Source: Aplectana chamaeleonis
Taxonomy: Eukaryota > Nematoda > Chromadorea > Rhabditida > Cosmocercidae
Length of the DNA: 64,000 bases
Assembly (NCBI GenBank): GCA_029168955.1
Contig: JAPDOI010000953.1
Span: 164,501 to 228,500, forward strand
Reading direction: 5' to 3'
Shown piece after piece: positions 24,685-64,000 of this stretch (positions are counted from its first letter, which is position 1; each line of letters begins with the position of its first letter). The notes beneath the pieces were generated by a model, which was given only the letters and a program-made list of their open reading frames with translations, made no database searches and was not told the origin of the DNA. The position numbers were made by a program, and so were the translations under genes.

Positions 24685-26061
24685 TCATTTATTTTTCCTA
24701 AAGGTTTCCTTTCTAACATGATTGATGCCTGATGGTGTTTTTTTTTCGAAATAAACACCCGTCCTGCACAGCGAGTAAACGTCCTGCGCACTACCACTGA
24801 CGCTCTGCACACTTTCTATGACGCCCTGCAGACTCCCACTGATGTCCTGCACACACTCTAAGGCGTCCTGCACACTCCCACCGTTGTCGTGCGCACTCCC
24901 ACTGCTGCCCTGCACAGTCCCACTGAAGTGCTGTACACTTTCTATGACGTTCTGCACTCTCCCACTGATGCCGTATGCACTGCCACTGGGGTCCTGCACA
25001 CTTTATATGACGTCCTGCACACTCCCACTGAAGTCCTGCACACTTTCTTTGACGTCCTGCACACTCCCACCGTTGTCGTGCACACTCCCACTGATGTCTT
25101 ACGCACTCCCACTGGGCTCCTGCACTTTTTATATGACGTCCTGCTTACTCCCACTCAAGTCCTGCGCACTTTATATGACGTCTTGCACACTCCCACTGAC
25201 GTCCTGCACCCTCCCACTGATGTCCTGCACACTCCCTCTGATGTCCTACGCACTCCCACTGGGCTCCTGCTTTTTTTATATGACGTCCTGCTTACTCCCA
25301 CTGAAGTCCTGCACACTTTCTTTGACGTCCTGCACACTCCCACCGCTGTCGTGCACACTCCCACTGATGTGCTACGCACTCCCACTGGGCTCCTGCACTT
25401 TTTATATGACGTCCTGCTTACTCCCACTGAAGTCCTGCGCACTTTCTATGACGTCCTGCACACTCCCACTGACTTCCTGCACACTCCCACTGATGTCCTG
25501 CACACTCCCACTGATGTCCTGTACACTCCCACTGATGTCCTGTACACTCTCACTGATGTCCTGCCCGCTTCCACTGGGGTTCTGCTCACTTTCTATGACG
25601 TCCTGCACACTCCCACTGACGTCCTGCACACTCCCACTGGTGTCCTGTCCACTCCAACTGATGTCCTGCACACTCCCACTGATGTCCTGTAGACTCCCAC
25701 TGATGTCCTGTACACTCTCACTGATGTCCTGCCCGCTCCCACTGGGGTCCTGCACACTCCCACGGATGTCCTGCACACTCCCACTGATGTCCTGTACACT
25801 CCCACCGATGTCCTGTACACTCTCACTGATGTCCTGCCCGCTCCCACTGGGGTCCTGCACACTTTCTATGACGTCCTGCACACTCCCACTGATGTCCTGC
25901 ACACTCCCACTAATGTCCTGTACACTACAACCGAGGTCGTGCACACTCCCACTGATTTTCTGCACACTCCCACTGGGCTCGTGCACACTCTCTATGACGT
26001 CCTGCTTACTCCCACTGATGTCCTACGCACTCCCACTGAGCTCCTGCACTTTTTATATGAC

Positions 26062-26440
26062 GCTCTGCGTACTCCCACTAAAGTCCTGCGCACTTTCAAT
26101 GACGTCCTGCACACTCCCACTGACGTCCTGCACACTCCCACTGATGTCCTGCACACTCCCACTGATGTCCTATACACTCCCACTAATGTCCTGTACACTA
26201 CCACCGACGTCGTACACACTCCCACTGATGTTCTGCTCACCCCCCTGGGCTCCTGCACACTTTCTATGACGTCCTGCACACTCCCACTGATGTCCTACGC
26301 ACTCCCACTGAGCTCCTGCACTTTTTATATGACGCCCTGCTTACTCCCACTAAAGTCCTGCGCACTTTCTATGACGTCCTGCACACTCCCACTGACGTCC
26401 TGCACACTCTCACTGATGCCCTGCACACTTCCACTGATGT
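26062..26440. repeat. H-G-F variant cassette within the satellite (example pair)
   Basis: The run H, G-like (CTTACTCCCACTAAA), F or CGCACTTTC, then CGCACTCCC/CACACTCTC...GATGCCCTG and E is found here and again near 26320-26440, 26690-26810, 32766-32890 and 60520-60640. The same monomer order at distant sites shows that multi-monomer blocks, not single monomers, were copied. Confidence 0.75.
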
Positions 26441-27553
26441 CCTGTACACTCCCACTGATGTCCTGCCCGCTCCCACTGGGGTCCTGCACACTTTCTATGA
26501 CGTCCTGCACACTCCCACTGATGTCCTGCACACTCCCACTAATGTCCTGTACACTACCACTCACTGATGTCCTGCTTCAGCTGCACACTCCCACTGATGT
26601 TCTGCTGACTCCCACTGGGCTCCTGCACACTTTCTATGACGTCCTGCACACTCCCACTGATGTCCTACGCACTCCCACTGAGCTCCTGCACTTTTTATAT
26701 GACGCCCTGCTTACTCCCACTAAATTCCTGCGCACTTTCTATGACGTCCTGCGCACTCCCACTGACGTCCTGCACACTCTCACTGATGCCCTGCACACTT
26801 CCACTGATGTCCTGTACACTCCAACTAATGTCCAGTACACTCTCACTGATGTCCTGCCCGCTCCCACTGGGGTCCTGCACACTTTCTATGACGTCCTGCA
26901 CACTCCCACTGATGTCCTTCACACTCCCACTGACGTCCTGTACACTCCCACTGACGTCCTGCACACTCCCACTGATGTCCTGTACACTCCCACTGATGTC
27001 CTGTACACTCTCACTGGATGTCCTGCACACTCCCACTGGGGTCCTGCACACTTTCTATGACGTCCTGCACACTCCCACTGATGTCCTGCACACTCCCACT
27101 GACGCCCTGCACACTCCCACTGATGTCCTGCACATCTTCCGTGATGTCCTGTACACTCACTGATGTCCTGCCCGGGATCCTGCACACTTTCTATGACGTC
27201 CTGCACACTCCCACCGATGTCCTGTCAACACGTCCTGCACACTCCCACTGATGTCCTGCACACCTCCACCGATGTCCTGTACACTCCCACCGATGTCCTG
27301 TACACTCCACTGGGATGTCCTGCCCGCTCCCACTGAAGTCCTGCACACTTTCTATGACGTCCGGCGCACTCCCACTGACGTCCTGCACACTCCCACTGAT
27401 GTCCTGCACACTTCCACTGATGTCCTGTACACTCCCACTGATGTCCTGTACACTCTCACTGATGTCCTGCCCGCTCCCACAGGGGTCCTGCACACTTTCT
27501 ATGACGTCCTGCACACTCCCACTGACATCCTGCACATTCCCAGTGATGTCCCT

Positions 27554-30043
27554 CCCTTTTCTTCAATGACGTCCTGCACGCTCCCACTGACGTCCTGCAC
27601 ACTCCCACTGATGTCCTATACACTCCCACTGATGTCCTGTGCACTCTCACTGATGTCCTGCACACTCCCACTGGGGTTCTGCACACTTTCTATGACGTCC
27701 TGCACACTCCCACTGAAGTCCTGCACACTTTTTACGACGCCCTGCACACTCCCACTGATGTCCTGCACACCTTCTGTTATGTCCTGCACACTCCCACTGA
27801 TGACCTACGCACTCCCACTGGGCTCCTGCACTTTTCAGATGACGCCCTGCTTACTCCCATTGAAGTTCTGCGCACTTTCTATGACGTTCTGCGCACTCCC
27901 ACTGACGTCCTGCACACTCCCACTGATGTCCTGTACACTCTCACTGATGTTCTGTACACTCTCACTGATGTCCTGCCCGCTCCCACTGGGGTTCTGCACA
28001 CTCCCACTGATGTCCTGCACACTTTCTAAGACGTCCTGCACACTCCCACTGATGTCCTTCACACTCAAACTGATGTCCTGTACACTCCCACTGACGTCCT
28101 GCACACTCCCTCTAGGGTCCTGCACACTTTCTATGACGTCCTGCACACTCCCACTGATGTCCTGCACACTCCCACTGATGTCCTATACACTCTCACAGAT
28201 GTCCTGCCCGCTCACACTGAGGTCGTGCACACTTTCTATGACGTCCTGTACACTCCCAGTGATGTCCTTCCCTTTTCTTCAATGACGTCCTGCACACTCC
28301 CACTGACGTCCTGCACACGCACACTGATGTCCTGCACACTCCCACTGATGTCCTGTACACTCTCACTGATGTCCTGCCCGCTCCCACTGAGGTCGTGCAC
28401 ACTTTCTATGACGTCCTGTACACTCCCAGTGATGTCCTTCCCTTTTCTTCAATGACGTCCTGCACACTCCCACTGATGTCCTGCACACTCCCACTGGGGT
28501 TCTGCACACTTTCTATGACGTCCTGCACACTCCCACTGATACCCTGCACACTCCCACTGATGTCCTGTACACTCCCACCGAGGTCGTGCACACTCCCACT
28601 GATTTTCTGCACACTCCCACTGGGCTCGTGCACACTTTCTATGACGTCCTGCTTACTCCCACTGAAGTCCTGCGCACTTCCTACGACGTCCTGCACACTC
28701 CCACTGACGTCCTGCACACGCACACTGATGTCCTGCACACTCCCACTGATGTCCTGTACACTCTCACTGATGTCCTGCCCGCTCCCACTGAGGTCGTGCA
28801 CACTTTCTATGACGTCCTGCTTACTCCCACTCTCGTCCTGCACACTCCCACTGACGTCCTGCACACCCTGACTAATGTCCTGTACACTCCCACTGATGTC
28901 CTGCACACTTCCACTGAAGTCCTGCGCACTTTCTATGACGTCCTGCGCACTCCCACTGACTTCCTGCACACTCCCACTGATGTCCTGCACACTTCCACTG
29001 ATGTCCTGTACACTCCCACTGATGTCCTGTACACTCTCACTGAGGTCGTTCACATTTTCTATGACGTCCTGCACACTCCCAGTGATGTCCTTCCCTTTTC
29101 TTCAATGACGTCCTGCACTTTCCCACTGATGTCCTGCACACTCCCACTGGGGTTCTGCACACTTTCTATGACGTCCTGCACACTCCCACTGATGTCCTGC
29201 ACACTCCCACTGATGTCCTGTACACTCCCACCGAGGTCGTGCACACTCCCACTGATTTTCTGCACACTCCCACTGGGCTCGTGCACACTTTCTATGACGT
29301 CCTGCTTACTCCCACTGAAGTCCTGCGCACTTCCTATGACGTCCTGCACACTCCCACTGATGTCCTGCACACTCCCACTGATGTCCTGTACACTCCCGCC
29401 GACGTCGTACCTACTCCCACTGATGTTCTGCACACTCCAACTGGGCTCCTGCACACTTTCTATGACGTCCTGCTTACTCCCACTGAAGTCCTGCGCACTT
29501 CCTATGACGTCCTGCACACTTCCACTGACGTCCTGCACACTCCCACTGATGTCCTGTACACTCTCACTGATGTCCTGCCCGCTCCCACTGAGGTCGTGCA
29601 CACTTTCTATGACGTCCTGCACACTCCCAGTGATGTCCTTCCCTTTTCTTCAATGACGTCCTGCACACTCCCACTGATGTCCTGCACACTCCCACTGATG
29701 TCCTGCACATCTTCTGTGATGTCCTGCACACTCCCACTGATGTCCTGCACACTCCCACCGATGTCCTGTACACTCCCGCCGACGTCGTACCTACTCCCAC
29801 TGATGTTCTGCACACTCCAACTGGGCTCCTGCACACTTTCTATGACGTCCTGCTTACTCCCACTGAAGTCCTGCGCACTTCCTATGACGTCCTGCACACT
29901 TCCACTGACGTCCTGCACACTCCCACTGATGTCCTGTACACTCTCACTGATGTCCTGCCCGCTCCCACTGAGGTCGTGCACACTTTCTATGACGTCCTGC
30001 ACACTCCCAGTGATGTCCTTCCCTTTTCTTCAATGACGTCCTG
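27554..30043. repeat. sub-array marked by 23-bp J monomers
   Basis: The odd monomer CCCTTTTCTTCAATGAC starts at 27554, 28270, 28440, 29093, 29641 and 30021. Spacings 170, 653, 548 and 380 are each a multiple of 21 plus 2, because J is two bases longer than normal. Each J shifts all reading frames, so no long coding frame crosses the sub-array. Confidence 0.8.
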
Positions 30044-32239
30044 CACACTCCCACTGATGTCCTGCACACTCCCACCGATGTCCGTCCACACTCCCACTGA
30101 TTTTCTGCACACTCCCACTGATGTCCTGCACACTCCCACCGATGTCCTGCACACTCCCACTGATGTCCTGCACACTCCCACTGATGTCCTGCACACTTTC
30201 TATGACGTCCTGCACCCTCCCACAGATGCCCTGCACACTTTTTGTGACGTCCTGCACACTCCCGTTAATGTTCTGCGCACATTCTGTGACATCCTGCACA
30301 CTCACACTGATGTCCTGCACACTCCCACTGTTGTCCTGTACACTCCCACTGATGTCCTGCACACTCCCACTGATGTCCTGCTCTGCCCACTTTCTATGAC
30401 GTCCTGCACACTCCCACTGATGTCCTGTACACTCCCACTGACGTCCTGCACACTCCCACTGATGTCCTGCACACTTCCACTGATGTCCTGTACACTCCCA
30501 CTGATGTCCTGTACACTCTCACTGATGTCCTGCCCGCTCCCACAGGGGTCCTGCACACTTTCTATGACGTCCTGCACACTCCCACTGATGTCCTGCAGAC
30601 TCCCACTGATGCGCTGTCCAATCCCCCTGATGTCCTGCACACTCCCACTGATGTCCTGCACACTCCCACTGATGTCCTGCACACTCCCACTGATGTCCTG
30701 CCCGCTTAAACTGGGGTTCTGCACACTTTCTATGACGTCCTGCACACTCCCACTGACGTCCTGCCCACTCCCACTGGTGCCCTGTCCACTCCCACTGATG
30801 TCCTGCACACTCCCACGGATGTCCTATACACTCCCACTGATGTCCTGCACACTCCCACTGATGTCCTGTACACTCTCACTGATGTCCTGCCCGCTCCCAC
30901 AGGGGTCCTGCACACTTTCTATGACGTCCTGCACACTTTCTATGACGTCCTGCACACTCCCACTGATGTCCTGCACACTCCCACTGAGGTCCTGCACACA
31001 GGTCGTGCACACCTATGATTTTCCTGTACACTCACTGAATGTCCTGCGCACTTCTTCAATGACGTCCTGCACACTCCCACTGACGTCCTGCACACTCCCA
31101 CTAAAGTCCTGCACACTCCCATTGATGTCCTGTACACTCCCAGTGATGTCATGTACACTTTCACAGATGTCCTGCCCGCTCCCACTGAGGTCGTGCACAC
31201 TTTCTATGACGTCCTGCACACTCCCAGTGATGTCCTGCACACTCCCACTGAGGTCCTGTACACTCCCACTGACGTCCTGCACACTCCCACTGATGTCCTA
31301 TACACTCCCACTGATGTCCTGTACACTCTCACTGATGTCCTGCACACTCCCACTGGGGTTCTGCACACTTTCTATGACGTCCTGCACACTCCCACTGATG
31401 TCCTGCGCACTTTCCATGACGTCCTGCACACTCCCACTGATGTCCTGCACACTTTCTGTGATGTCCTGCACACTCCCACTGATGTCCTGCACACTTTCTG
31501 TGATGTCCTGCACACTCCCACTGATGTCCTGCACACTTTGCATGACAACCTGCACACTCCCACTGATGTCCTGCACACTCCCACTGATGTCCTGCACACT
31601 CCCACTATGTCCTGCGCACTTTCTATGTCGTTCTCCACACTCCCACTGATGTCCTGCACACTCGCACTGATGTCCTGCACACTCCCACTGATGTCCTGCA
31701 CACTTTCCACTGACGTCCTGCACACTCCCACTGATGTCCTGCACACTCCCACTGATGTCCTGCACACTTTCACTGACGTCCTGCACACTCCCACTGATGT
31801 CCTGCACACTCCCACTGAGCTCCTGCACACTTTATATGACGCCCTGCTTACTCCCACTGAAGTCCTGCGCACTTCCTATGACGTCCTGCACACTCCCACT
31901 GACGTCCTGCACACTCCCACTGATGTCCTGCACACTTCCACTGATGTCCTGTACACTCCCACTGATGTCCTGTACACTCTCACTGATGTCCTGCCCGCTC
32001 CCACTGGGGTACTGCACACTTTCTATGACGTCCTGCTCACTCCCACTGATGTCCTTCACACTCCCACTGAGGTCCTGTACACTCCCACTGACGTCCTGCA
32101 CACTCCCACTGATGTCCTATACACTCCCACTGATGTCCTGTACACTCTCACTGATGTCCTGCACACTCCCACTGGGGTTCTGCACACTTTCTATGACGTC
32201 CTGCACACTCCCACTGTAGTCCTGCACACTTTTTACGAT

Positions 32240-32720
32240 GCCCTGCACACTCTCACTGATGTCCTGCACATCTTCTGTGATGTCCTGCACACTCCCACTG
32301 GGGTTCTGCACACTTTCTATGACGTCCTGCACACTCCCACTGTAGTCCTGCACACTTTTTACGACGTCCTGCACACTCCCACTGATGTCCTATACACTCC
32401 CACTGATGTCCTGCACACTCCCACCAAAGTCCTGCGCACTTTCTATGACGTCCTGCGCACTCCCACTGACGTCCTGCACACTCCCACTGATGTCCTGCAC
32501 ACTTCCACTGACTTCCTGCACACTCCCACTGATGTCCTGCACACTCCCACTGATGTCCTGCCCGCTTCCACTGGGGTTCTGCACACTTTCTATGACGTCC
32601 TGCACACTCCCACTGACGTCCTGCAGACTCCCACTGATGCGCTGTCCACTCCCACTGATGTCCTGCACACTCCCACTGATGTCCTGCACACTCCCACTGA
32701 TGTCCTGCCCGCTTCCACTG
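32240..32720. repeat. duplicated satellite block, copy 1
   Basis: Contains the rare monomer CACACTCCCACCAAA (CCACCAAAG at 32421) in a fixed context: I, D-like, B, a TTTTTACGAC monomer, then F, E with GACTTCCTG, and GATGCGCTGTCC. The same order recurs at 34070-34545 and, over a shorter span, at 62150-62450. Confidence 0.8.
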
Positions 32721-34069
32721 GGGTCCTGCACACTTTCTATGACGTCCTGCACACTCCCACTGAGCTCCTGCACTTTTTATATGACGCCCTGCTTACTCCC
32801 ACTAAAGTCCTGCGCACTTTCTATGACGTCCTGCGCACTCCCACTGACGTCCTGCACACTCTCACTGATGCCCTGCACACTTCCACTGATGTCCTGTACA
32901 CTCCCACTAATGTCCTGTACACTCTCACTGATGTCCTGCCCGCTCCCACTGGGGTACTGCACACTTTCTATGACGTCCTGCACACTCCCACTGACGTCCT
33001 GCACACTCCCACTAATGTCCTGCACACTTCCACTGATGTCCTGTACACTCCCACTGATGTCCTATACACTCCCACTGATGTCATGTACACTCTCACTGAT
33101 GTCCTGCACACTCCCACTGGGGTTCTGCACACTTTCTATGACGTCCTGCACACTCCCACTAAAGTCCTGCACACTCCCATTGATGTCCTGTACACTCCCA
33201 GTGATGTCATGTACATCTTCTGTGATGTCCTGCACACTCCCACTGATGTCCTGCACACTCCCACTGATGTCCTGCACACTTCCACTGATGTCCTGCACAC
33301 TCCCACTGATGTCCTGCACACTTTCTATGATGTCCTGCCCACTCCCACTGATGTCCTGCACACTTTCTATGACGTCCTGCACTCCCACTGACGTCCTGCA
33401 CACTCCCACTGATGTCCTGCACACTTCCACTGACTTCCTGCACGCTCCCACTGATGTCCTGCACACTTCCACTGATGTCCTGCCCGCTTCCACTGGGGTT
33501 CTGCACACTTTCTATGACGTCCTGCACACTCCCACTGACGTCCTGCAGACTCCCACTGATGCGCTGTCCACTCCCACTGATGTCCTGCACACTCCCAAGG
33601 ATGTCCTGCACACTCCCACTGATGTCCTGTACGCTCCAACTGATGTCCTGTACACTCTCACTGATGTCCTGCCCGCTTCCACTGGGGTTCTGCACACTTT
33701 CTATGACGTCCTGCGCACTCCCACTGACGTCCTGCACACTCTCACTGATGCCCTGCACACTTCCACTGATGTCCTGTACACTCCCACTGATGTCCTGTAC
33801 ACTCTCACTGATGTCCTGCCCGCTCCCAAAGGGGTCCTGCACACTTTCTATGACGTCCTGCACACTCCCACTGATGTCCTGTACACTCCCACTGACGTCC
33901 TGCACACTCCCACTGATGTCCTGCACACTTCCACTGATGTCCTGTACACTCCCACTGATGTCCTGTACACTCTCACTGATGTCCTGCCCGCTCCCACATG
34001 GGTCCTGCACACTTTCTATGACGTCCTGCACACTCCCACTGGTGTCCTGTACACTTTTACTGATGTCCT

Positions 34070-34545
34070 GCACACTCTCACTGATGTCCTGCACATCTTC
34101 TGTGATGTCCTGCACACTCCCACTGGGGTTCTGCACACTTTCTATGACGTCCTGCACACTCCCACTGTAGTCCTGCACACTTTTTACGACGTCCTGCACA
34201 CTCCCACTGATGTCCTATACACTCCCACTGATGTCCTGCACACTCCCACCAAAGTCCTGCGCACTTTCTATGACGTCCTGCGCACTCCCACTGACGTCCT
34301 GCACACTCCCACTGATGTCCTGCACACTTCCACTGACTTCCTGCACACTCCCACTGATGTCCTGCACACTCCCACTGATGTCCTGCCCGCTTCCACTGGG
34401 GTTCTGCACACTTTCTATGACGTCCTGCACACTCCCACTGACGTCCTGCAGACTCCCACTGATGCGCTCTCCACTCCCACTGATGTCCTGCACACTCCCA
34501 CTGATGTCCTGCACACTCCCACTGATGTCCTGCCCGCTTAAACTG
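34070..34545. repeat. duplicated satellite block, copy 2
   Basis: CCACCAAAG at 34246, 1,825 bp from copy 1 (87 monomers minus 2 bp). The third copy has CCACCAAAG at 62207, about 28 kb away. Confidence 0.8.
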
Positions 34546-37500
34546 GGGTTCTGCACACTTTCTATGACGTCCTGCACACTCCAACTGGGCTCCTGCACAC
34601 TTTCTATGACGTCCTGCTTACTCCCACTGAAGTCCTGCGCACTTCCTATGACGTCCTGCACACTCCCACTGACGTCCTGCACACTCCCACTGATGTCCTG
34701 CACACTTCCACTGATGTCCTGTACACTCCCACTGATGTCCTGTACACTCTCACTGATGTCCTGCCCACTCCCACAGGGGTCCTGCACACTTTCTATGACG
34801 TCCTGCACACTCCCACTGATGTCCTGCACACTCCCACTGAGGTCCTGTACACTCCCACTGACGTCCTGCACACTCCCACTGATGTCCTATACACTCCCAC
34901 TGATGTCCTGTGCACTCTCACTGATGTCCTGCACACTCCCACTGGGGTTCTGCACACTTTCTATGACGTCCTGCACACTCCCACTGAAGTCCTGCACACT
35001 TTTTACGATGCCCTGCACACTCTCACTGATGTCCTGCACATCTTCTGTGATGTCCTGCACACTCCCACTGACGTCCTGCACACTCCCACTGATGTCCTGC
35101 ACACTTCCACTGACTTCCTGCACGCTCCCACTGATGTCCTGCACACTTCCACTGATGTCCTGCCCGCTTCCACTGGGGTTCTGCACACTTTCTATGACGT
35201 CCTGCGCACTCCCACTGACGTCCTGCACACTCCCACTGATGTCCTGCACACTTCCACTGACTTCCTGCACGCTCCCACTGATGTCCTGCACACTTCCACT
35301 GATGTCCTGCCCGCTTCCACTGGGGTTCTGCACACTTTCTATGACGTCCTGCACACTCCCACTGACGTCCTGCACACTCCCACTGACGTCCTGCACACGC
35401 ACACTGATGTCCTGCACACTCCCACTGACGTCGTACACACTCCCATTGATGTCCTGTACACTCCCAGTGATGTCCTGTACACTCTCACAGATGTCCTGCC
35501 CGCTCCCACTGAGGTCGTGCACACTTTCTATGACGTTCTGCTTACTCCCACTGAGGTCCTGCACACTCCCACTGACGTCCTGCACACTCCCACTGATGTC
35601 CTATACACTCCTACTGATGTCCTGTACACTCTCACTGATGTCCTGCCCGCTCCCACTGAGGTCCTGCACACTTTGTGTGACGTCCTGCACACTCCCACTG
35701 ATGTCCTGCACACTCCCACTGAGGTCCTGCACACTCCCACTGACGTCCTGCACACTCCCACTGATGTCCTATACACTCCTACTGATGTCCTGCACACTCT
35801 CACTGATGTCCTGCACACTCCCACTGGGGTCCTGCACACTTTCTATGACGTCCTGCACACTCCCAGTAATGTCCTGCACTCTTCAATGACGTCCTGCACA
35901 CTCCCACTGATGTCCTGCACACTCCCACCGATGTCCTGCACACTCCCACTGATGTCCTGCACGCTCCCACTGGGGTTCTGCACACTTTCTATGACGTCCT
36001 GCACACTCCCACTGGTGTCCTGCACAATTTCTATCACGTCCTGCCCACTCCCACTGACGTCCTGAACACTCCCACTGTTGTCCTGCACACTCACACTGAT
36101 GTCCTGCGCACATTCTATGACGTCCTGAACACTCCCACTGTTGTCCTGCCCACTCCCACTGACGTCCTGCACACTCCCACTGAAGTCCTGCACACTCACA
36201 CTGATGTCCTGCACACTCCCACTGATGTCCTGCACACTCCCACTGATGTCCTGCCCGCTCCCACTGATGTCCTGCACACTTTCTATGACGTCCTGCACAC
36301 TCCCACTGATGTCCTGCACTTTTCTATGACGTCCTGCACACTCCCACTGATGTCCTGCACACTTTCTATGACGTCCTGCACACTCCCACTGACGTCCTGC
36401 ACACTCCCACTGATGTCCTGCACACTTCCACTGATGTCCTGCACACTCCCACTAATGTCCTGCACACTCCAACTGATGTCCTGCACACTCCCACTGATGT
36501 CCTGCACACTATCTATGACGTCCTGCACACTCCCACTGATGTCATGTACACTCTCACTAATGTCCTGTACACTCCCACTGACGTCCTGCACACTCCCACT
36601 GATGTGCTGCACACTCTCACTAATGTCCTCTACACTCCCACTGACGTCCTGCACACTCCCACTGATGTCCTGCACACTTTAAATGAGGTCCTGTATACTC
36701 CCACTGATGTCCTGCACACTTTCCACGAGATCCTGCACACTCCCACAGATGTCCTGCTTACTTTCTACGACGTCCTGCACACTCCCACTGACGTCCTGCA
36801 CACTCCCACTGATGTCCTGTACACTTCCACTGATGTCCTGTACACTCTCACTGATGTCCTGTACACTCTCACTGATGTCCTGCCCGCTCCCAAAGGGGTC
36901 CTACACACTTTCTATGACGTCCTGCACACTCCCACTGATGTCCCGCACACTCCCACTGATGTCCTGTACACTCCCACTGATGCCCTGTACACTCCCGCCG
37001 ACGTCGTGCCTACTCCCACTGATGTTCTTCACACTCTCACTGAAGTCCTGCGCACTTCCTATGACGTCCTGCACACTCCCACTGACGTCCTGCACACTCC
37101 CACTGATGTCCTGTACACTTCCACTGATGTCCTGTACACTCTCACTGATGTCCTGTACACTCTCACTGATGTCCTGCACACTTTCCAACTGATGTCCTGT
37201 ACACTCTCACTGATGTCCTGCCCACTCCCACAAGGGTCCTGCACACTTTCTTCAATGACGTCCTGCACACTCCCACTGATGTCCTGCACACTCCCACCGA
37301 TGTCCTGTACACTCCCGCCGACGTCGTACCTACTCCCACTGATGTTCTTCACACTCTCACTGAAGTCCTGCGCACTTCCTATGACGTCCTGCACACTCCC
37401 ACTGAAGTCCTGCACACTTCCACTGATGTCCTGTACACTCCCACTGATGTCCTGTACACTCTCACTGATGTCCTGCACACTTTCTATCACCTCCTGCACA

Positions 37501-38189
37501 CTCCCACTGATGTCCTGCGCACTTTGCATGACGTCCTGCACACTCCCACTGATGTCCTGCACACTTTCTGTGATGTCCTGCACACTCCCACTGAAGTCCT
37601 GCACACTCCCACTGAAGTCCTGCACACTTTCTATCACCTCCTGCACACTCCCACTGATGTCCTGCGCACTTTGCATGACGTCCTGCACACTCCCACTGAT
37701 GTCCTGCACACTCCCACTGAAGTCCTGCACACTTCCACTGATGTCCTGTACACTCCCACTGATGTCCTGTACACTCTCACTGATGTCCTGCCCGCTCCCA
37801 CTGGGGTCCCGCACACTTTCTATGACGTCCAGCACACTCCCAGTGATGTCCTTCACACTCAAGCTGATGTCCTGTACACTCTCACTGATGTCCTGCACAC
37901 TCCCACTGGGGTTCTGCACACTTTCTATGACGTCCTGCACACTCTCACTGATGTCCTGCACATCTTCTGTGATGTCCTGCACACTCCCACTGATGTCCTA
38001 CGCACTTTCTGTGACGTCCTGCACACTCCCACTGATGACCTGCACACTCCACACTGATGCTCCTGCACACTTTTTATGATGTCCGCCCTGCTTACTCCCA
38101 CTGATGTCCTGCACACTTTCTATGACGTCCTGAGCACTCCCACTGACGTCCTGCACACTCCCACTGATGTCCTGCACACTTCTACTGAT

Positions 38190-38670
38190 GTCCTGTACAC
38201 TTCCACTGATGTCCTGTACACTCTCACTAAGGTCGTGCACACTTTCTATGACGGTCTGCACATTCCCAGTGATGTCCTTCCCTTTTCTTCAAAGACGTCC
38301 TGCACACTCCCACTGACACTTTCTATGACGTCCTGCACACTCCCACTGAAGTCCTGCACACTTTTTGCGACGCCCTGCACACTCCCACTAATGTCCTGCA
38401 CATCTTCTTTGATGTCCTGCACACTCCCACTGATGACCTACGCACTCCCATTGGGCTCCTGCACTTTATATATGACGCCCTGCTTACTCCCATTGAAGTC
38501 CTGCGAACTTTCTATGACGTCCTGCACACTCCCACTGACGTCCTGCACACTCCCACTGATGTCCTGTACACTCTCACTGATGTCCTGCCCGCTCCCACTG
38601 AGGTCGTGCACACTTTCTATGACGTCCTGCACACTCCCAGTGATGTCCTTCCCTTTTCTTCAATGACGTC
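38190..38670. repeat. second duplicated satellite block, copy 1
   Basis: Marked by the unique text TTCTTCAAAGACG at 38286, CACTGACACTTTC, TTTTTGCGACG and CATCTTCTTTGAT, which reappears in the same order at 41213-41670, offset 3,023 bp. Confidence 0.8.
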
Positions 38671-41212: not shown

Positions 41213-41670
41213 GTCCTGTACACTTCAACTGATGTCCTGTACACTCTCACTAAGGTCGTGCACACTTTCTATGACGGTCTGCACATTCCCAGTGATGTCC
41301 TTCCCTTTTCTTCAAAGACGTCCTGCACACTCCCACTGACACTTTCTATGACGTCCTGCACACTCCCACTGAAGTCCTGCACACTTTTTGCGACGCCCTG
41401 CACACTCCCACTAATGTCCTGCACATCTTCTTTGATGTCCTGCACACTCCCACTGATGACCTACGCGCTCCCATTGGGCTCCTGCACTTTATATATGACG
41501 CCCTGCTTACTCCCATTGAAGTCCTGCGAACTTTCTATGACGTCCTGCACACTCCCATTGACGTCCTGCACACTCCCACTGATGTCCTGCCCGCTCCCAC
41601 TGAGGTCGTGCACACTTTCTATGACTTCCTGCACACTCCCAGTGATGTCCTTCCCTTTTCTTCAATGACG
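41213..41670. repeat. second duplicated satellite block, copy 2
   Basis: Same order of rare variants as 38190-38670. The second J monomer is offset by 3,002 instead of 3,023, so exactly one 21-bp monomer was lost in this copy (or gained in the other). Confidence 0.8.
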
Positions 41671-52200: not shown

Positions 52201-55200
52201 TCCCACTGATGTCCTGCACACTCCCACTGATGTCCTGCACACTCCCACTGATGTCCTGCACACTATCTATGACGTCCTGCACACTCCCCCTAATGCCCTG
52301 CACACTCCCACTGATGTCCTGCACACTCCCACTGATGTCCTGCACACTTCCACTGATGTCCTGCACACTCCCACTGATGTCCTGCACACTCTCACTGATG
52401 TCCTGCACACTCCCACTGATGTCCTGCACACTTTCTATGACGTCCTGCACACCTCCCACTGATGTCCTGCACACTCCCACCGGGATGTCCTATACACTCC
52501 ACTGACTGTCCTGCACACTCCCACTGATGTCCTGCACACTTTCTACTGATGTCCTGTACACTCCCACTGATGTCCTGCACACTCCCACTGATGTCCTGCA
52601 CACTTTCTATGACGTCCTGCACACTCCCACTGATGTCCTGCACACTTTCCACTGATGTCCTGCACACTCCCACTGATGTCCTGCACACTTTCTATGATTT
52701 CCTGCACACTCCCACTAATGTCCTGCACCCTGCCACTGATGTCCTGCACTCTCCTACTGATGTACTGCACACTCCCACTGATGTCCTGCACACTTTCTAT
52801 GATGTCCTGCACACTCCCACTGATGTCCTGCACGCTTTCTATGACGTCCTGCGCACTCCCACTGACGTCCTGCACACTCCCACTGATGTCCTGCACACTC
52901 CCACTGATGTCCTGCACACTCCCACTGATGTCCTGCACACTCCCACTGATGTCCTGCCCACTCCCACTGATGTCCTGCACACTTTCTATGATGTGCTGCC
53001 CACTCCCACTGATGTCCTGCACACTCCCACTAGTGTCCTGCTCACTCCCACTGATGTCCTGCACACTCCCACTGATGTCCTGCACACTCCCACTGATGTC
53101 CTGCACACTCCCACTGATGTCCTGCACACTCCCTTTAAAGTCCTGCACACTCCCACTGATGTCCTGCACACTCCCACTGAAGTTCTGCACACTCCCCTAA
53201 AGTCCTGCACACTCCCTTTAAAGTCCTGCACACTCCCACTGATGTCCTGCACACTCCCACTGAAGTTCTGCACACTCCCCTAAAGTCCTGCACACTCTCA
53301 CTGAAGTCCTGCACACTCCCACTGATGTCCTGCACACTCTCACTGAAGTTCTGCACACTCCCACTGATGTCCTGCACACTCCCACTGATGTCCTGCCTCT
53401 CACTGATGTCCTGCCCGCTTCCACTGATGTTCTGCACACTTTCTATGACGTCCTGCATACTCCACTGACGTCCTGCCCTCCCACTGAAGTGCCTGTCCAC
53501 TCCCACTGATGTCCTGCACACTCCCACTGATGTCCTGCACACTCCCACTGATGTCCTGCACACTTTCACTGATGTCCTGCACACTCCCACTGATGTCCTG
53601 CACACTTTCTATGACGTCCTGCACACTCCCACTGATGTCCTGCACACTCCCACTGATGTCCTGCACTCACTGATGTCCCTGCCTACACCACTGGGGTCCT
53701 GCACACTTTCTATGACGTCCTGCACACTCCCACTGATGTCCTGCACACTCCCACTGATGTCCTGCACACTCCCACTGATGTCCTGCACACTCCCACTGAT
53801 GTCCTGTACACTCCCACTGATGTCCTGCACACTCACTGATGTCCTGCACACTCCCTATGACGTCCTGCACACTCCCACTGATGTCCTGCACACACTTTCC
53901 ACTGATGTCCTGCACACTCCCACTGATGTCCTGCACACTTTCACTGATGTCCTGCACACTCCCACTGATGTCCTGCACACTCCCACTGATGTCCTGCACA
54001 CTCCCACTGATGTCCTGCACACTCCCACTGATGTCCTGCACACTCCCACTGATGTCCTGCACACTCCCACTAATGTCCTGCACACTCCCACTGATGTCCT
54101 GCACACTCCTACTGATGTCCTGCACACTCTCACTGATGTCCTGCCCACTTTCTACGACGTCCTGCACACTCCCACTGATGTCCTGCACACTTTCTATGAC
54201 GTCCTGCACACTCCCACTGATGTCCTGCACACTCCACTGCTGTCCTCCACCCTCCCACTGATGTCCTCCACGCTCTCAGTGATGGGCTGCACGGGCTCAC
54301 TGATGTCCTGCCCACTTTCTGTGACGTCCTGCACACTCCCACTGATCTCCTGCAGACTCCCACTGATGTCCTGCACACTCCCACTGATGTCCTGCACACT
54401 CCCCTTGATGTCCTGCACACTCCCACTGATGTCCTGCACACTTTCTATGACGTCCTGCACACTCCCCCTGATGTCCTCCCCACTCCCACTGATGTCCTGC
54501 CCACTCCCACTGACGTCCTGCACACTCCCACTACTGTCCTGCACACTCCCACTGATCTTCTGCACACTCCCACTGATGTCCTGCACACTCCCACTGATGT
54601 CCTGTACACTCCCACTGATGTCCTGCCCACTCCCACTGATGTCCTGCACACTTTCTATGACGTCCTGCACACTCCCACTAATGTCCTGCACACTCCCACT
54701 AATGTCCTGCACAGTCCCACTGATTTCCTGCACACTATGACTGATGGCCTCTACACTCCCACTGACATCCTGCCCACTCCCACTAATGTCCTGCACACTC
54801 CCACTGATGTCCTGCACACTTTCTATGAGGTCCTGCACACTCCCACTGATGTCATGCACACTCTCACTAATGTCCTGTACACTCCCACTGACGTCCTGCA
54901 CACTCCCACTGATGTCCTGTACACTCCCACTGACGTCCTGCACACTCCCACTGATGTCCTGCACACTCCCACTGATGTCCTGCACACTTTCTATGAGGTC
55001 CTGCACACTCCCACTGGGGTCCTACACACTTTCTATGAGGGCCTGCACCCTGCCACTGATGTCCTGCACTCTCCTACTGATGTACTGCACACTCCCACTG
55101 ATGTCCTGCACACTTTCTATGATGTCCTGCACACTCCCACTGATGTCCTGCACGCTTTCTATGACGTCCTGCGCACTCCCACTAATCTCCTGCACACTCC

Positions 55201-57000
55201 CACTAATGTCCTGAACACTCCCACCGATTTCCTGCACACTCCCACTAATGTCCTGCACCCTGCCACTGATGTCCTGCACTCTCCTACTGATGTTCTGCAC
55301 ACTCCCACTGATGTCCTGCACACTTTCTATGACGTCCTGCGCACTCCCACTAATCTCCTGCACACTCCCACTAATGTCCTGCACCCTGCCACTGATGTCC
55401 TGCACTCTCCTACTGATGTTCTGCACACTCCCACTGATGTCCTGCACACTTTCTATGACGTCCTGCACACTCCCACTAATCTCCTGCACACTTTCTGTGA
55501 CATCCTGAACACTCCCACCGATTTCCTGCACACTCCCACTAATGTCCTGCACACTGCCACTGATGTCCTGCACACTCCCACTGATATCCTGCACACTTTC
55601 TATGACGTCCTGCACACTCTCACTGATGTCCTGCACATCTTCTGTGATGTCCTGCACACTCCCACTGATGTCCTACGCACTCATACTGACACTTTCTATG
55701 ACGTCCTGCACACTCCCAATGATGTCCTGCACACTCTCACTAATGTCCTGTACACTCCCACTGACGTCCTGCACACTCCCACTGATGTCCTGCACACTCC
55801 CACTAATGTCCTGCACACTCCCACTGATGTCCTGCACACTCTCACTAATGTCCTGCACACTCCCACTTATGTCCTGCACACTTTCTATGAGGTCCTGCAC
55901 ACTCCCACTAATGTCCTGCACACTCCCACTGATGTCCTGCACACTCCCACTGATGTCCTGCACACTCTCACTGATGTCCTGCACACTTTCTATGACGTCA
56001 TGCACACTCCCACTGATGTCCTGCACACTCCCACTAATGTCCTGCACACTCCCACTGATGTCCTGCACACTCTCACTGATGTCCTGTACACTCCCACTGA
56101 CGTCCTGCACACTCCCACTGATGCCCTGCACACTCCCACTGATGTCCTGCACACTCTATGACGTCCTGCACACTCCCACTAATGTCCTGCACCCTGCCAC
56201 TGATGTCCTGCACTCTCCTACTGATGTACTGCACACTCCCACTGATGTCCTGCACACTTTCTATGATGTCCTGCACACTCCCACTGATGTCCTGCACGCT
56301 TTCTATGACGTCCTGCGCACTCCCACTGACGTCCTGCACACTCCCTATGACGTCCTGCACACTCCCACTGATGTCCTGCACACTCCCACTAATGTCCTGC
56401 ACACTCCCACTGATGTCCTGCACACTTTCTATGATGTCCTGCCCACTCTGACTGATGTCCTGCGCACTTTCTATGACGTCCTCCACACTGCAACTTATGT
56501 CCTGCACATTTTATGACGTCCTGCACACTCCCACTGATGTCCTGCACACTCCCACTAATGGCCTGCACACTCCCACTGATGGCCTGCACACTACCACTGA
56601 TGTCCTGCACACTTTCCATGAGGTCCTGCACAGTCCCGCTGATGTCCTGCACACTTTCTGTGACATCCTACACACTCCCACTGACGTCCTGCACACTCCC
56701 ACTGATGTCCTGCACACTCTCACTAATGTCCTGTACACTCCCACTGACGTCCTGCACACTCCCACTGATGTCCTGCACACTCCCACTGACCTCCTGCACA
56801 CTCCCACTGATGTCCTGCACTCCCACTGATGTCCTGCTTACACTCCCACTGATGTCCTGCACACTCCCACTGATGTCCTGCACACTTTCTATGACGTCCT
56901 GCACACTCCCACTGATGTCCTGCACACTCCCACTGATGTCCTGCACACTCCCACTGATGTCCTGCACACTCCCACTGATGTCCTGCACACTCTCTATGAC
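43300..57000. repeat. simpler, indel-rich central part of the satellite
   Basis: Here the common monomer and B dominate, and the C-D-B and H-G-F cassettes become rare. Many small length changes appear (for example CTGCACTCCCACTG lacking bases near 45209, 45851, 49083, 49730; CACTTTCCACTG or CACTTTCTACTG additions near 51510, 51677, 52544, 57030). Limits are approximate. Confidence 0.6.
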
Positions 57001-58554
57001 GTCCTGCACACTCCCACTGATGTCCTGCACACTTTCCACTGACGTCCTGCACACTCCCACTGATGTCCTGCACACTCCCACTGATGTCCTGCACACTCCC
57101 ACCGACGTCGTACCTACTCCCACTGATGTTCTGTACACTCCAACTTCGCTCCTGCACACTTTCTATGACGTCCTGCTTACTCCCACTGAAGTCCTGCGCA
57201 CTCCCACTGATGTCCTGCACACTCCCACTGATGTCCTGCACACTCCCACTGATGTCCTGCACACTCCCACTGATGTCCTGCACACTCCTACTGATGTCCT
57301 GCACACTCTCACTGATGTCCTGCACAATTTCTATGACGTCCTGCACACTCCCACTGATGTCCTGCGCGCTCCCACTGATGTCCTGCACACTCCCACTGAT
57401 GTTCTGCACACTCCCACTGGGCTCCTGCACACTTTCTATAACGTCCTGCTTACTCCCACTAAAGTCCTGCGCACTTTCTATGACGTCCTGCGCACTCCCA
57501 CTGACGTCCTGCACACTTTCTATGACGTCCTGCACACTCCCACTTATGTCCTTCACACTCCCACTGAGGTCATGTACACTCCCACTGAGCTTCTGCACTT
57601 TTTATGTGACGCCCTGCTTACTCCCACTAAAGTCCTGCGCACTTTCTATGACGTCCTGCGCACTCCCACTGACGTCCTGCACACTTTCTATGACGTCCTG
57701 CATACTCCCACTAATGTCCTCCACACTCCCACTGATATCCTGCACACTCCCACTAATGTCCTGCACACTCTCTATCTAAAGTCCTGTACACTTTCTATGA
57801 AGTACTGCACACTTTTTGTGACGTCCTGCACACTCCCACTAAGTTCCTGCACACTTCCACTGATGTCCTGCTCACTTCCTATGAAGTCCTGCACACTCCC
57901 ACTGATGTCCTGCACACTTTCTATGACGTCCTGCACACTCCCACTGATGTCCTGCACATCTTCTGTGATGTCCTGCACACTCCCACTGATGTCCTGCACA
58001 CTCCCACTGATGTCCTGCACACTCCCACTGATGTCCTGCACACTTTCTATGACGTCCTGCACACTCCCACTGGTGTCCTGCACACTCCCACTGATGTCCT
58101 GCACACTCCCACTGATGTCCTGCACACTTCCACTGATGTCCTGTACACTCCCACTAATGTTCTGCACACTCCCACTCATGTCCTGCACACTCCCACTGAT
58201 ATCCTGCACCCTCCCACTGATGCCCTGCACACTTTCTATGACGTCCTGCACACTCCCACTGACGTCCTGCACACTCCCACTGATGTCCTGTCCACTCCCA
58301 CTGATGTCCTGCACAATCCCACTAATGTCCTGTACACTCCCACTGATGTCCTGCACACTTTCTATGAGGTCGTGCACACTCCCACTGATGTCCTGCACAC
58401 TTTCTATGACGTCCTGCACACTCCCACTGACGTCCTGCACACTCTCACTGATGCCCTGCACACTTCCACTGGGGTCCTGCACACTTGCACTGACTTCCTG
58501 CACACTCCCACTGATGGCCTGCATACTCCCACTTATGTCCTGCCCGCTCCCACT

Positions 58555-59394
58555 GGGGTACTGCACACTTTCTATGACGTCCTGCTCACTCCCACTGATG
58601 TCCTTCACACTCCCACTGAGGTCCTGTACACTCCCACTGACGTCCTGCACACTCCCACTGATGTCCTATACACTCCCACTGATGTCCTGTACACTCTCAC
58701 TGATGTCCTGCACACTCCCACTGGGGTTCTGCACACTTTCTATGACATCCTCCACACTCCCACTGAAGTCCTGCACACTCCCATTGACGTCCTGCACATT
58801 CCCAGTGATGTCCTGCACACTCTCACTGAAGTCCTGCGCACTTTCAATGACGTCCTGCGCACTCCCACTGACGTCCTGCACACTCTAACTGATGCCCTGC
58901 ACACTTCCACTGATGTCCTGTACACTCCCACTAATGTCCTGTACACTCTCACTGATGTCCTGGCCGCTCCCACTGGGGTACTGCACACTTTCTATGACGT
59001 CCTGCTCACTCCCACTGATGTCCTTCACACTCCCACTGAGGTCCTGTACACTCCCACTGACGTCCTGCACACTCCCACTGATGTCCTATACACTCCCACT
59101 GATGTCCTGTACACTCTCACTGATGTCCTGCACACTCTCACTGATGTCCTGCACACTTTCTATGACGTCATGCAAACTCCCACTGATGTCCTGCACACTT
59201 TTTACGATGTCCTGCACACTCCCACTGATGTCCTGCACATCTTCTGTGATGTCCTGCACACTCCCACTGATGTTCTGCACACTTTCTATGACGTCCTGCA
59301 CACTCTCACTGATGTCCTGTACACTCTCACTGATGTCCTGCCCGCTCCCACTGAGGTCGTGCACACTTCCACTGAAGTCCTGCGCACTTCCTAT
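58555..59394. repeat. 420-bp higher-order repeat, first location
   Basis: GGGGTACTGCACACTTTC starts at 58555 and again at 58975, exactly 420 bp (20 monomers) apart, with the same monomer order after each for about 180 bp. Part of the same order occurs at 32006 and 61939. Confidence 0.75.
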
Positions 59395-61631
59395 GACGTC
59401 CTGCACACTCCCACTGACGTCCTGCACACTCCCACTGATGTCCTGCACACTTCCACTGACTTCCTGCACACTCCCACTGATGTCCTGCACACTCCCACTG
59501 ATGTCCTACCCGCTTCCACTGCGGTTCTGCACACTTTCTATGACGTCCTGCACACTCCCACTGACGTCCTGCAGACTCCCACTGAGGTCCTGCACACCCC
59601 ACTGACGTCCTGCACACTCCCACTGATGTCCTATACACTCCCACTGATGTCCTGTACACTCTCACTGATGTCCTGCACACTCCCACTGGGGCTCTGCACA
59701 CTTTCTATGACGTCCTGCACACTCCCACTGTAGTCCTGCACACTCCCACTGATGTCCTGCACACTCACTGAAGTCTTGCACACTCCCACTGAAGTCCTGC
59801 ACACTTTCTATGACGTCCTGCACACTCCCACTGATGTCCTGCACACTCCCACTGATGTCCTGCACACTCCCACTAAAGTCCTGCGCACTTTCTATGACGT
59901 CCTGCACACTCCCACTGATGTCCTTGTCCTGCCCGCTTCCACTGGGGTCCTGCACACTTTCTATGACGTCCTGCCCACTCCCACTGATGTCCCGCACACT
60001 CCCACTGATGTCCTATACACTCCCACTGATGCCCTGTACACTCCCACAGATGTCCTGCGCACCTCCACGGATGTCCTGCACACTCCCACTGATGTCCTGT
60101 ACACTCCCACCGATGTCCTGCACACCCTCACTGATGTCCTGCCCGCTCCCACTGATGTTCTGCACACTCCCACTGGGCTCCTGCACACTTTCTATGACGT
60201 CCTGCCCACTCCCACTGATGTCCCGCACACTCCCACTGATGTCCTGCACACTCCCACTGATGTCCTGTACACTCCCACCGACGTCGTACACACTCCCACT
60301 GATGTTCTGCACACTCCCACTGGGCTCCTGCACACTTTCTATGACGTCCTGCACACTCCCACTGGGGTTCTGCACACTTTCTATGACGTCCTGCACACTC
60401 CCACTGTAGTCCTGCACACTTTTTACGACGCCCTGCACACTCTCACTGATGTCCTGCACATCTTCTGTGATGTCCTGCACACTCCCACTGATGTCCTACG
60501 CACTCCCACTGAGCTCCTGCACTTTTTATATGACGCCCTGCTTACTCCCACTAAAGTCCTGCGCACTTTCTATGACGTCCTGCGCACTCCCACTGACGTC
60601 CTGCACACTCTCACTGATGCCCTGCACACTTCCACTGATGTCCTGCCCACTTCCACTGACTTCCTGCACACTCCCACTGATGTCCTGCACACTCCCACTG
60701 ATGTCCTGCCCGCTTCCACTGGGGTTCTGCACACGTTCTATGACGTCCTGCTCACTCCCACTGATGTCCTTCACACTCCCACTGAGGTCCTGTACACTCC
60801 CACTGACGTCCTGCACACTCCCACTGATGTCCTATACACTCCCACTGATGTCCTGTACACTCTCACTGATGTCCTGCACACTCCCACTGGGGTTCCGCTT
60901 ACTTTCTATGACGTCCTGCACACTCCCACTGTAGTCCTGCACACTCCCACTGATGTCCTGCACACTTCCACTGACTTCCTGCACACTCCCACTGATGTCC
61001 TGCACACTCCCACTGATGTCCTGCCCGCTTCCACTGATGTCCTGCACACTTTCTATGACGTCCTGCACACTCCCACTGATGTCCTGACCACTCCCACCGA
61101 TTTCCTGCACACTCCCACTAATGTCCTGCACCCTGCCACTGATGTCCTGCACTCTCCTACTGATGTTCTGCACACTCCCACTGATGTCCTGCGCACATTA
61201 TGTGACATCCTGCACACTCTCACTGATGCCCTGCACACTCCCACTGACGTCCTGCACACTTCCACTGATGTCCTGCACACTCCCACTGATGTCCTGCACA
61301 CTCCCACTGATGTCCTGCACACTCCCACTGATGTCCTGCACAATGGCTATGACGTCCTGCACACTCCCACTAATGTCCTGCGCACTTCCACTAATGTCCT
61401 GCACTTTCCCACTGACGTCCTGCACACTCCCACTGATGTCCTGCACACTCCCACTGATGTCCTGTACACTCTCACTGACGTCCTGCACACTCTCACTGAT
61501 GTCCTGCACACTTTCTATGACGTCCTGCACACTCCCACTGATGTCCTGCACACTCCCACTGATGTCCTGCACACTCCCACTGATGTCCTGCACACTCTCA
61601 CTGATGTCCTGCCCACTTTCTATGACGTCCT

Positions 61632-61799
61632 GCACACTCCCACTGATGTCCTGCACACTCCCACTGATGTCCTGCACACTCCCACTGATGTCCTGCACAC
61701 TCCCACTGATGTCCTGCACACTCCCACTGATGTCCTGCACACTCCCACTGATGTCCTGCACACTCCCACTGATGTCCTGCACACTCCCACTGATGTCCT
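61632..61799. repeat. eight identical monomers in a row
   Basis: Eight consecutive copies of the common monomer without a substitution. Such a run is the signature of recent local slippage or unequal exchange. A similar run without variants lies at about 53960-54060. Confidence 0.85.
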
Positions 61800-62945
61800 G
61801 CACACTCCCACTGAAGTCCTGCGCACTTCCTATGACGTCCTGCACACTCCCACTGACGTCCTGCAGACTCCCACTGATGTCCTGTACACTCCCACTGATG
61901 TCCTGTACACTCTCACTGATGTCCTGCCCGCTCCCACTGGGGTACTGCACACTTTCTATGACGTCCTGCTCACTCCCACTGATGTCCTTCACACTCCCAC
62001 TGAGGTCCTGTACACTCCCACTGACGTCCTGCACACTCCCACTGATGTCCTATACACTCCCACTGATGTCCTGTACACTCTCACTGATGTCCTGCACACT
62101 CCCACTGGGGTTCTGCACACTTTCTATGACGTCCTGCACACTCCCACTGTAGTCCTGCACACTCCCACTGATGTCCTATACACTCCCACTGATGTCCTGC
62201 ACACTCCCACCAAAGTCCTGCGCACTTTCTATGACGTCCTGCGCACTCCCACTGACGTCCTGCACACTCCCACTGATGTCCTGCACACTTCCACTGACTT
62301 CCTGCACACTCCCACTGATGTCCTGCACACTCCCACTGATGTCCTGCCCGCTTCCACTGGGGTTCTGCAAACTTTCTATGACGTCCTGCACACTCCCACT
62401 GACGTCCTGCAGACTCCCACTGATGCGCTGTCCACTCCCACTGATGTCCTGCACACTAAAAGGATGTCCTGCAAACTCCCACTGATGTCCTGTACACTCC
62501 CACTGATGTCCTGCACACTCCCACTGATGTCCTGTCCACTCCCACTGATGTCCTGCACACTCCCATGGATGTCCTGCACACTCCCACTGATTTTCTGCAC
62601 ACTCCCACTGGGCTCGTGCACACTTTCTATGACGTCCTGCACACTCCCACTGAAGTCCTGCACACTTTTTACGACGCCCTGCACACTCTCACTGATGTCC
62701 TGCACATCTTCTGTGATGTCCTGCACACTCCCACTGATGACCTACGCACTCCCACTGAGCTCCTGCACTTTTTATATGACGCCCTGCTTACTCCCACTAA
62801 AGTTCTGCGCATTTTCTATGACGTCCTGCGCACTCCCACTGACGTCCTGCACACTCCCACTGATGTCCTGCACACTTCCACTGATGTCCTGTACACTTCC
62901 ACGGATGTCCTGTACACTCTCACTGATGTCCTGCCCGCTCCCACT

Positions 62946-64000
62946 GGGGTACTGCACACTCCCACTGATGTCCTGCACACTCCCACTGATGTCCTGTACA
63001 CTCCCACTGATGTCCTGCACACTTCCACTGATGTCCTGTACACTCCCACTAATGTCCTGTACACTCTCACTGATGTCCTGCCCGCTCCCACTGGGGTACT
63101 GCACACTTTCTATGACGTCCTGCTCACTCCCACTGATGTCCTTCACACTCCCTCTGAGGTCCTGTACACTCCCACTGACGTCCTGCACACTCCCACTGAT
63201 GTCCTGCACACTCCCACTGATGTCCTGTACACTCCCACTGATGTACTGCACACTTCCACTGATGTCCTGTACACTCCCACTAATGTCCTGTACACTCTCA
63301 CTGATGTCCTGTACACTCCCACTAATGTCCTGTACACTCTCACTGATGTCCTGCCCGCTCCCACTGGGGTACTGCACACTCCCACTGATGTCCTGCACAC
63401 TCCCACTGATGTCCTGTACACTCCCACTGATGTCCTGCACACTTCCACTGATGTCCTGTACACTCCCACTAATGTCCTGTACACTCTCACTGATGTCCTG
63501 CCCGCTACCACTGGGGTACTGCACACTTTCTATGACGTCCTGCTCACTCCCACTGATGTCCTTCACACTTTCCAGTGAGGTCCTGTGCCCTCCCACTGAG
63601 GTGCTGCACACTCCCACTGATGTCCTGCACACTCCCACTGATGTCCTGTACACTCCCACTGATGTCCTGCACACTTCCACTGATGTCCTGTACACTCCCA
63701 CTGATGTCCTGTACACTCCCACTAATGTCCTGTACACTCTCACTGATGTCCTGCCCGCTCCCACTGGGGTACTGCACACTCCCACTGATGTCCTGCACAC
63801 TCCCACTGATGTCCTGTACACTCCCACTGATGTCCTGCACACTTCCACTGATGTCCTCTACACTCCCACTAATGTCCTGTACACTCTCACTGATGTCCTG
63901 CCCGCTCCCACTGGGGTACTGCACACTTTCTATGACGTCCTGCTCACTCCCACTGATGTCCTTCACACTCCCACTGAGGTCCTGTACACTCCCACTGACG
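62946..64000. repeat. 420-bp higher-order repeat, tandem copies to window end
   Basis: Copies start at 62946, 63366 and 63766. The first step is exactly 420 bp; the second is 400 because of a short deletion and an irregular piece near 63568-63610. Each has two GGGGTACTG sites 147 bp (7 monomers) apart (62946/63093, 63366/63513, 63766/63913), so the unit is a 7-monomer plus a 13-monomer block. Confidence 0.85.

Follow-up and report, generated by a model that had tools for sequence, protein, structure and literature searches.

A long 21-bp satellite array of the nematode Aplectana chamaeleonis as the probable expanded central repeat of a Helentron-like transposon

Background

The stretch of DNA considered here, 64,000 nucleotides from the nematode Aplectana chamaeleonis (contig C2041, positions 164501-228500, in an assembly of 1.037 Gb and 2087 contigs; hereafter, the window), contains a long satellite array of 21-bp monomers, and the question it raises is where such an array comes from and how it acquired the ordered arrangement of its monomer variants. 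As described below, the array is probably the central repeat, enormously expanded, of a non-autonomous transposon that is present in many copies and is of the rolling-circle type, similar to Helentrons and, in particular, to the HINE elements. The analysis follows up a preliminary description of this locus that was made from the sequence alone.

The array and its left module

Tandem Repeats Finder (TRF) detects a single 21-bp array in the window, at 24781-63998; combined with monomer cutting, this gives a satellite at 24781..64000 on the forward strand, with the consensus monomers GTCCTGCACACTCCCACTGAT (class p) and GTCCTGCACACTTTCTATGAC (class Y). The remaining contig sequence carries the array 19,218 bp past the window, up to the end of the 247,718-bp contig, for a total of 58,438 bp, so that the satellite of at least 39 kb originally reported is confirmed and extended to 58.4 kb. 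The long array reported to start at 24761 is real, but positions 24761-24780 are a degenerate transition rather than clean monomer, and the start is moved to 24781. The array was cut into 1871 monomers within the window, representing 569 distinct strings, and into 2785 monomers in the entire contig. A 32-base satellite probe has 5840 exact matches genome-wide, including 221 in the window and 56 in the following 19.2 kb; scaled from these counts, similar arrays are estimated to total about 1-2 Mb, with diverged arrays, such as that on contig C1, under-counted by the probe. A 27-base probe has no matches in viral contigs, Rfam and ARAGORN return no matches for the window, and searches of open-licence papers yielded general satellite papers only, with no description of a 21-bp nematode satellite. 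Columns 4 and 11 of the monomer rarely vary; functional constraint on these columns was considered and left as a weak candidate, with 4 and 2 singletons, respectively, compared to a mean of 7.5 per column (157 in total).

Immediately to the left of the array lies the left module of a dispersed element (23961..24739, forward strand), delineated by its inverted repeats, by genome search and by alignment with copies of the element on contigs C63 and C1396. The left module is largely one imperfect hairpin of about 735 bp that consists of nested inverted arms, namely, 23962-24003/24655-24696, 23999-24062/24595-24658, 24090-24176/24479-24565 and 24172-24287/24364-24479. The transition to the array (24740..24780, forward strand) is a run of T followed by degenerate monomer-like sequence; the run at the end of the module consists of C in the C63 and C1396 copies, and neither run is a clear microsatellite of the kind that ends the left module of HINEs. 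In the genome searches, only the best 40 first-look candidates were scored. With window positions 22800-24800 as the query, there were 5614 first-look candidates, and the best 40 gave 89 match rows because the hairpin matches both strands; the full-length copies among these 40 start at about 23959-23977 and mostly extend to 24739, others cover only part of the module, and on two contigs the rows belong instead to a different repeat located further to the left. The module contains a putative 5' subterminal repeat, GATTTGGC (24009..24016, forward strand), which is the inverse of the GCCAAATC word located directly before the 3' palindrome of the right modules described below. The GATTTGGC word recurs at 24120, and the subterminal match is 8 bp long in the window copy and 9 bp long in the C63 copy.

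The right module and the 3' end of the element

A satellite array on contig C4, at both of its outer edges, and that on contig C1, at its right edge, run into a common sequence, the right module. When a 641-bp piece of this edge was used as the genome query, all of the best 40 among 3276 first-look candidates matched, 3 of these on C4 at 98-100% identity and the other 37 at 92-94%, with starts at query positions 1-8 and stops at 611-618. The right module is about 0.6 kb long, and the shared sequence ends just past a perfect 21-bp palindrome, GGTGAGCGCTTCGCGCTCACC. The 18 ends that were read (16 of the 37 non-C4 right modules, C4 and C1) all contain this palindrome with at most one mismatch; it is followed by ACAATT in 13 cases and by a variant one base off in the remaining 5, and then by unshared sequence. 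This common end marks where a dispersed mobile element terminates on its 3' side. Helentrons insert at TT without target-site duplication.

Near the 5' end of the C63 copy, there is a 9-bp word, AGATTTGGC, the inverted form of which, GCCAAATCT, stands directly before the palindrome in stretch L052 (4437-4445) and also recurs in the C63 left module. Exact joints of a 3' end to a 5' end, with the pattern GCGCTCACCACAATTCCTGAAAG, occur 13 times genome-wide, compared to none for a reversed-pattern control; in L067 (contig C1035), likewise, a 3' end runs into the apparent 5' end of another copy. Such head-to-tail joints are expected of rolling-circle replication in the Helitron superfamily; they could equally arise by nesting, when one copy inserts at the end of another.

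Copies with both modules

The copies on C63 and C1396, which were read directly, consist of the left module (truncated in C1396), a 21-bp array, a relic dimer and the start of the right module, in the same order and on the same strand; the alternating relic and a common insertion of about 0.3 kb separate the array from the right module. The sequence upstream of both arrays aligns with the left flank of the array in the window and enters the array at the same point. The left and right modules are about 2.0 kb apart in C63, by direct reading. Furthermore, for 5 of the 37 non-C4 right modules, one of the scored left modules lies on the same strand within 1196-3035 bp (C1479, 1196 bp; C1353, 1268 bp; C111, 2610 bp; C1410, 2961 bp; C428, 3035 bp), these distances being computed from match coordinates across unread DNA. 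An array flanked by left and right modules, as in HINEs, is present in C63 and C1396; the window contains the left module and the array. Because the left flank of the window array is the left module, joined to the array in the same manner as in C63 and C1396, this array is best read as the inner repeat of the dispersed element, exceeding its length in these six copies by a factor of at least twenty to fifty. The predicted origin of the window array from a transposon is well supported on its left side.

Two side observations pertain to these copies. The same short inverted-repeat insertion lies at the same place between the array and the relic dimer in stretches L058 (~1000-1310) and L059 (~1015-1340), and may mark a sub-lineage of the element. 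On the opposite strand, two weak satellite-like pieces with 4 and 7 mismatches border the left module of C63 on its left (L060, 1243-1304) and are perhaps the remains of a second array; no opposite-strand satellite-like pieces were found within 4 kb left of the left module in the window.

The genome also encodes potential partners of the element. Helitron_like_N matches above the cut-off number 42 rows from 44 candidates, with none in 14 control genomes; several are located in open frames of more than 1000 amino acids, and three in frames of more than 2000. For the mechanism of transposition and the autonomous partner, we infer that the element would spread by rolling-circle transposition using Helitron-like proteins encoded elsewhere in the genome. 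Unequal exchange and the duplication of blocks, both between monomers of the same class, would then have enlarged the array and would give rise to cassettes and to a scarcity of adjacent Y monomers without selection.

Order of the monomers and the avoidance of adjacent Y monomers

The preliminary description held that the monomer variants are not randomly mixed and that multi-monomer cassettes, rather than single monomers, were the copied unit; both propositions stand up to comparison with shuffled arrays. Neighbours (lag 1) in the window variant string share 0.748 bits of mutual information, whereas 500 shuffles average 0.287 bits and never exceed 0.320. With words of more than half canonical monomer set aside, words of 6 monomers that recur form 106 pairs; 100 full shuffles contain none, and 100 shuffles that preserve doublets average 5.6, with no more than 16 in any of them. 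Near-identical segments with a score of at least 250 number 21 in the array and 0 in each of 5 monomer shuffles; at a score of at least 90, there are 1508 versus 164-273. In the longest duplication, the 1300-bp segments at 31876..33175 and 33701..35000, both on the forward strand, are 95.8% identical. Because the order is non-random even against the shuffles that preserve neighbour pairs, blocks of more than two monomers must have been copied.

The cassette C-D-B was decoded from the 12 places listed for it as GTCCTGTACACTCTCACTGAT, then a CCCGCT-type monomer, then a TTTCTATGAC-type monomer, as in the three monomers at 25537..25599 (forward strand). With small changes allowed, it is present at all 12 places: 9 of them have the exact C monomer and 3 a C monomer that differs by one base, and the D and B monomers follow at every one of the 12. 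Across the contig array, the exact C monomer is followed by a CCCGC-type monomer in 54 of 96 cases, and 48 of these 54 continue with a class Y monomer; of the 176 monomers ending in GGG, 155 precede a Y monomer, compared to a Y base rate of 17%. No fixed higher-order period was detected in the window array up to a lag of 129 monomers (median lag identity 0.808, best 0.817, lag 1 0.797). The C1 array consists of a 105-bp unit (a 5-mer, ppYpY) nested in a 315-bp unit, with 93-94% identity. Multi-monomer units repeated as blocks, the mark of higher-order repeats, are present, with fixed 105/315-bp units in the C1 array only.

The monomers fall into two classes, p (..CCCACTGAY) and Y (..TTTCTATGAC), which differ mainly at columns 12, 13, 15 and 16, and the order obeys a rule that the preliminary description overlooked, namely, Y monomers avoid each other. 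Adjacent Y monomers account for 2 of the 2784 neighbour pairs in the contig array, with 79.0 expected, and for 0 of the 714 pairs in four samples from C1 and C4, with 86.6 expected; four stretches of two further copies of the element, analysed by a looser method, contain one such pair in all, in L058. At its edges, the C4 array consists of an old dimer of 42 bp with a roughly alternating pattern. In a simple simulation of unequal exchange between monomers with varied leakage between the classes, exchange between any two monomers left 17-371 YY pairs, which is near or somewhat under chance; 10% leakage left 1-128 pairs, 1-3% leakage left 0-28, and strictly within-class exchange left none in 8 of 8 runs, by construction of the model. 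These simulations suggest that the rule would need no selection, only homology-checked exchange and a founder array without YY; selection is still compatible with the rule. A stronger proposition is that the element actively makes satellite, with faulty rolling-circle replication of the central repeat seeding, time and again, arrays that become ten to fifty times larger than the element, and, in addition, that class-matched exchange alone does not maintain the ban on adjacent Y monomers, a requirement on the sequence also being at work, such as a protein or pairing step for which Y must be flanked by p. We regard this combination as quite unlikely.

Alternative explanations

The symmetry of the C4 locus brings up the alternative that the satellite is carried by a foldback or cut-and-paste transposon with terminal inverted repeats, similar to foldback elements whose inverted arms contain tandem repeats. 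The left module is, indeed, a long hairpin, and at C4 two arrays are arranged head to head with the right modules facing outward, that is, right module, array (minus strand), head-to-head joint, array (plus strand), right module. The outer arms are 97.6-98.1% alike over about 2.8 kb and end in AAGTATCACTTC/GAAGTGATACTT (L029 ~6520; L030 3962; L055 ~1701), and within 12 bp outside the arms there is a shared 7-bp word, a result equalled by 64 of 20000 random pairs. However, the C63 and C1396 copies are asymmetric, with the left module, the array and the right module all on one strand, and the non-C4 right modules enter unshared sequence directly after the palindrome in all 17 cases read, whereas the C4 outer arms extend about 2.2 kb further, into sequence not common to C1. 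The seamless 3'-to-5' joints also fit a rolling circle better. A third right module, 99% identical, lies 159 kb away on C4, and the symmetry of this locus looks like a later local inverted duplication. On balance, the foldback explanation appears unlikely.

A conventional structural satellite, whether centromeric, holocentromeric or heterochromatic, that merely borders pieces of transposons might be expected from the length of at least 58 kb and the abundance of the 32-base word across the genome; moreover, in some repeat-based holocentric plants, centromeric arrays are said to be dispersed along the chromosomes (PMC12692304, in the part concerned with such plants). This explanation is highly unlikely given that the flanks of the array are modules with fixed boundaries in the scored copies, and that, among the 32-mer matches listed, one on C1 is followed directly by those on C4, so that C2 and C3, if the order is that of the contigs, would have none, unlike regular spacing. 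The centromeric or subtelomeric role that was previously envisaged is not borne out either: the C4 array (about 33 kb) lies inside a 6.81-Mb contig and the C1 array inside an 8.1-Mb contig, both with other DNA beside them, and the window array borders the left module of a dispersed, high-copy element. Far less probable still, to the point of being negligible, is a protein-coding gene with a 7-amino-acid repeat. The monomer length of 21 bp is 7 x 3, and stop-free frames reach 803 amino acids, with long ones on both strands; this candidate was rejected on indel lengths and substitution phases, because, among 164 off-length monomers, the length changes by a multiple of 3 in only 13, and recent duplicates differ by substitutions that are spread evenly over the codon phases (247/245/232).

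Several observations weigh against the preferred reading, in which the array is the expanded inner repeat of a Helentron-like element. The right module of the window copy is unseen as the contig stops inside the array, and the C1 and C4 arrays show no left module in the sequence read. With the best 40 candidates scored in each genome search, copies with a single module may exist. The Helitron-like genes are candidates for the autonomous partner. The head-to-head pair on C4, with its outside word, would also be predicted by the foldback model, and the absence of YY pairs in the strict simulation is built in, showing that the rule can persist and not that it did so. The 735-bp hairpin is unlike the left flanks of HINEs in the descriptions that PMC7492417 gives of them, and the subterminal repeats are 8-9 bp long, compared to the 11-12 bp given there for the oyster.

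Relationship to known satellites and transposons

Oyster Helentrons are reported to contain satellite-like arrays, and the closest likeness is to Cg_HINE of Crassostrea gigas as characterized in the relevant parts of PMC7492417, which shares left and right modules around satellite-like central repeats and, possibly, subterminal inverted repeats with a complement inside the left module. The element described here differs in its 21-bp monomer, hairpin left module of about 735 bp, right module of about 0.6 kb and nematode host, in the single array of at least 58 kb with higher-order cassettes, and in subterminal repeats of 8-9 bp only. Some Caenorhabditis elegans satellites are said to be propagated by Helitron transposons (PMC4595182, as far as its account of these satellites goes); the host is again a nematode, and spread by Helitrons would be common to both cases. 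According to the pertinent portion of a review (PMC12628747), satellites grow from inner arrays of transposons, and intermediate arrays keep parts of the element on one side only; DINE-TR1 and Tetris of Drosophila, cited there, are different elements that are likewise given as sources of satellites emerging from internal repeats. In two Caenorhabditis species, higher-order structure is said to be present in most of the long satellites, with unequal recombination offered as the mechanism of growth (PMC5748669); the likeness lies in the higher-order structure, and the difference in that section 3.1 of that paper describes no such element. In view of the Caenorhabditis satellites and the oyster Helentron arrays, as portrayed in these parts of PMC5748669 and PMC7492417, the initial characterization of the organization of this satellite as unusual was too strong.

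Higher-order repeats of the alpha-satellite style are built of two monomer classes. The resemblance to alpha-satellite consists in two classes that are told apart at one box and in nested higher-order units (105/315 bp in C1); the differences are the 21-bp monomer, the location within a transposon and the lack of support for a centromeric role.

Other repeats and genes

The left 24 kb of the window contains fragments of a reverse transcriptase, a DDE_1 transposase and a Tc3-like transposase. The reverse transcriptase fragment has 114 relatives, and the two that carry an organism name come from a beetle and a coral. A 489-bp inverted repeat (6879-7367/8544-9032, 95% complementary) flanks an open frame with the DDE_1 match, and we take this element to be, perhaps, pogo/Tigger-like. 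A dispersed repeat family with inverted neighbouring copies, the arms of which are 75-90% complementary, occupies positions 1-196, 1073-2014 and 18930-20392; window positions 1000-3000 as the genome query gave 17722 first-look candidates, the best 40 of which yielded 106 match rows. A 41-bp tandem repeat at 3226-3477 has GACGTCCTG in common with the satellite; kinship between the two was considered and left unproven, the matches being only 10-11 bp long. To the right of the C1 array, stretch L056 contains two GIY-YIG fragments, at 2031-2516 (plus strand) and 6476-6979 (minus strand), the second just below the Pfam cut-off, which are presumably of the kind found in Penelope-like retroelements. 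One Pfam match below the cut-off, on an open reading frame of an arm, was taken as chance.

A five-unit TTAGGC probe has 252 forward and 68 reverse matches in the assembly. Some TTAGGC tracts lie inside contigs (L027/L028, C18:1491736-1494529; C55:747246-748507), with forward units followed by reverse units within 1-3 kb, as if two chromosome ends had been joined head to head, be it by fusion, by misjoining or at sites of programmed elimination. Stretch L057 holds an SL1-like 22-mer, one change from what we take to be the SL1 form; Rfam at the gathering threshold gave no match for this locus. The runs of TTAGGC and the SL1-like 22-mer both point to a nematode host.

Implications

Several stages of the path from transposon to satellite are seemingly present in one genome: six copies with 1.2-3 kb between the modules, a homogenised 105/315-bp array, an inverted pair that spans about 33 kb and, still joined to its left module, an array of at least 58 kb. 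If the class rule is neutral, exchange between monomers must involve a homology check fine enough to register a few mismatches per 21 bp, and the grammar of the monomers would be a readable record of how exchange happens.

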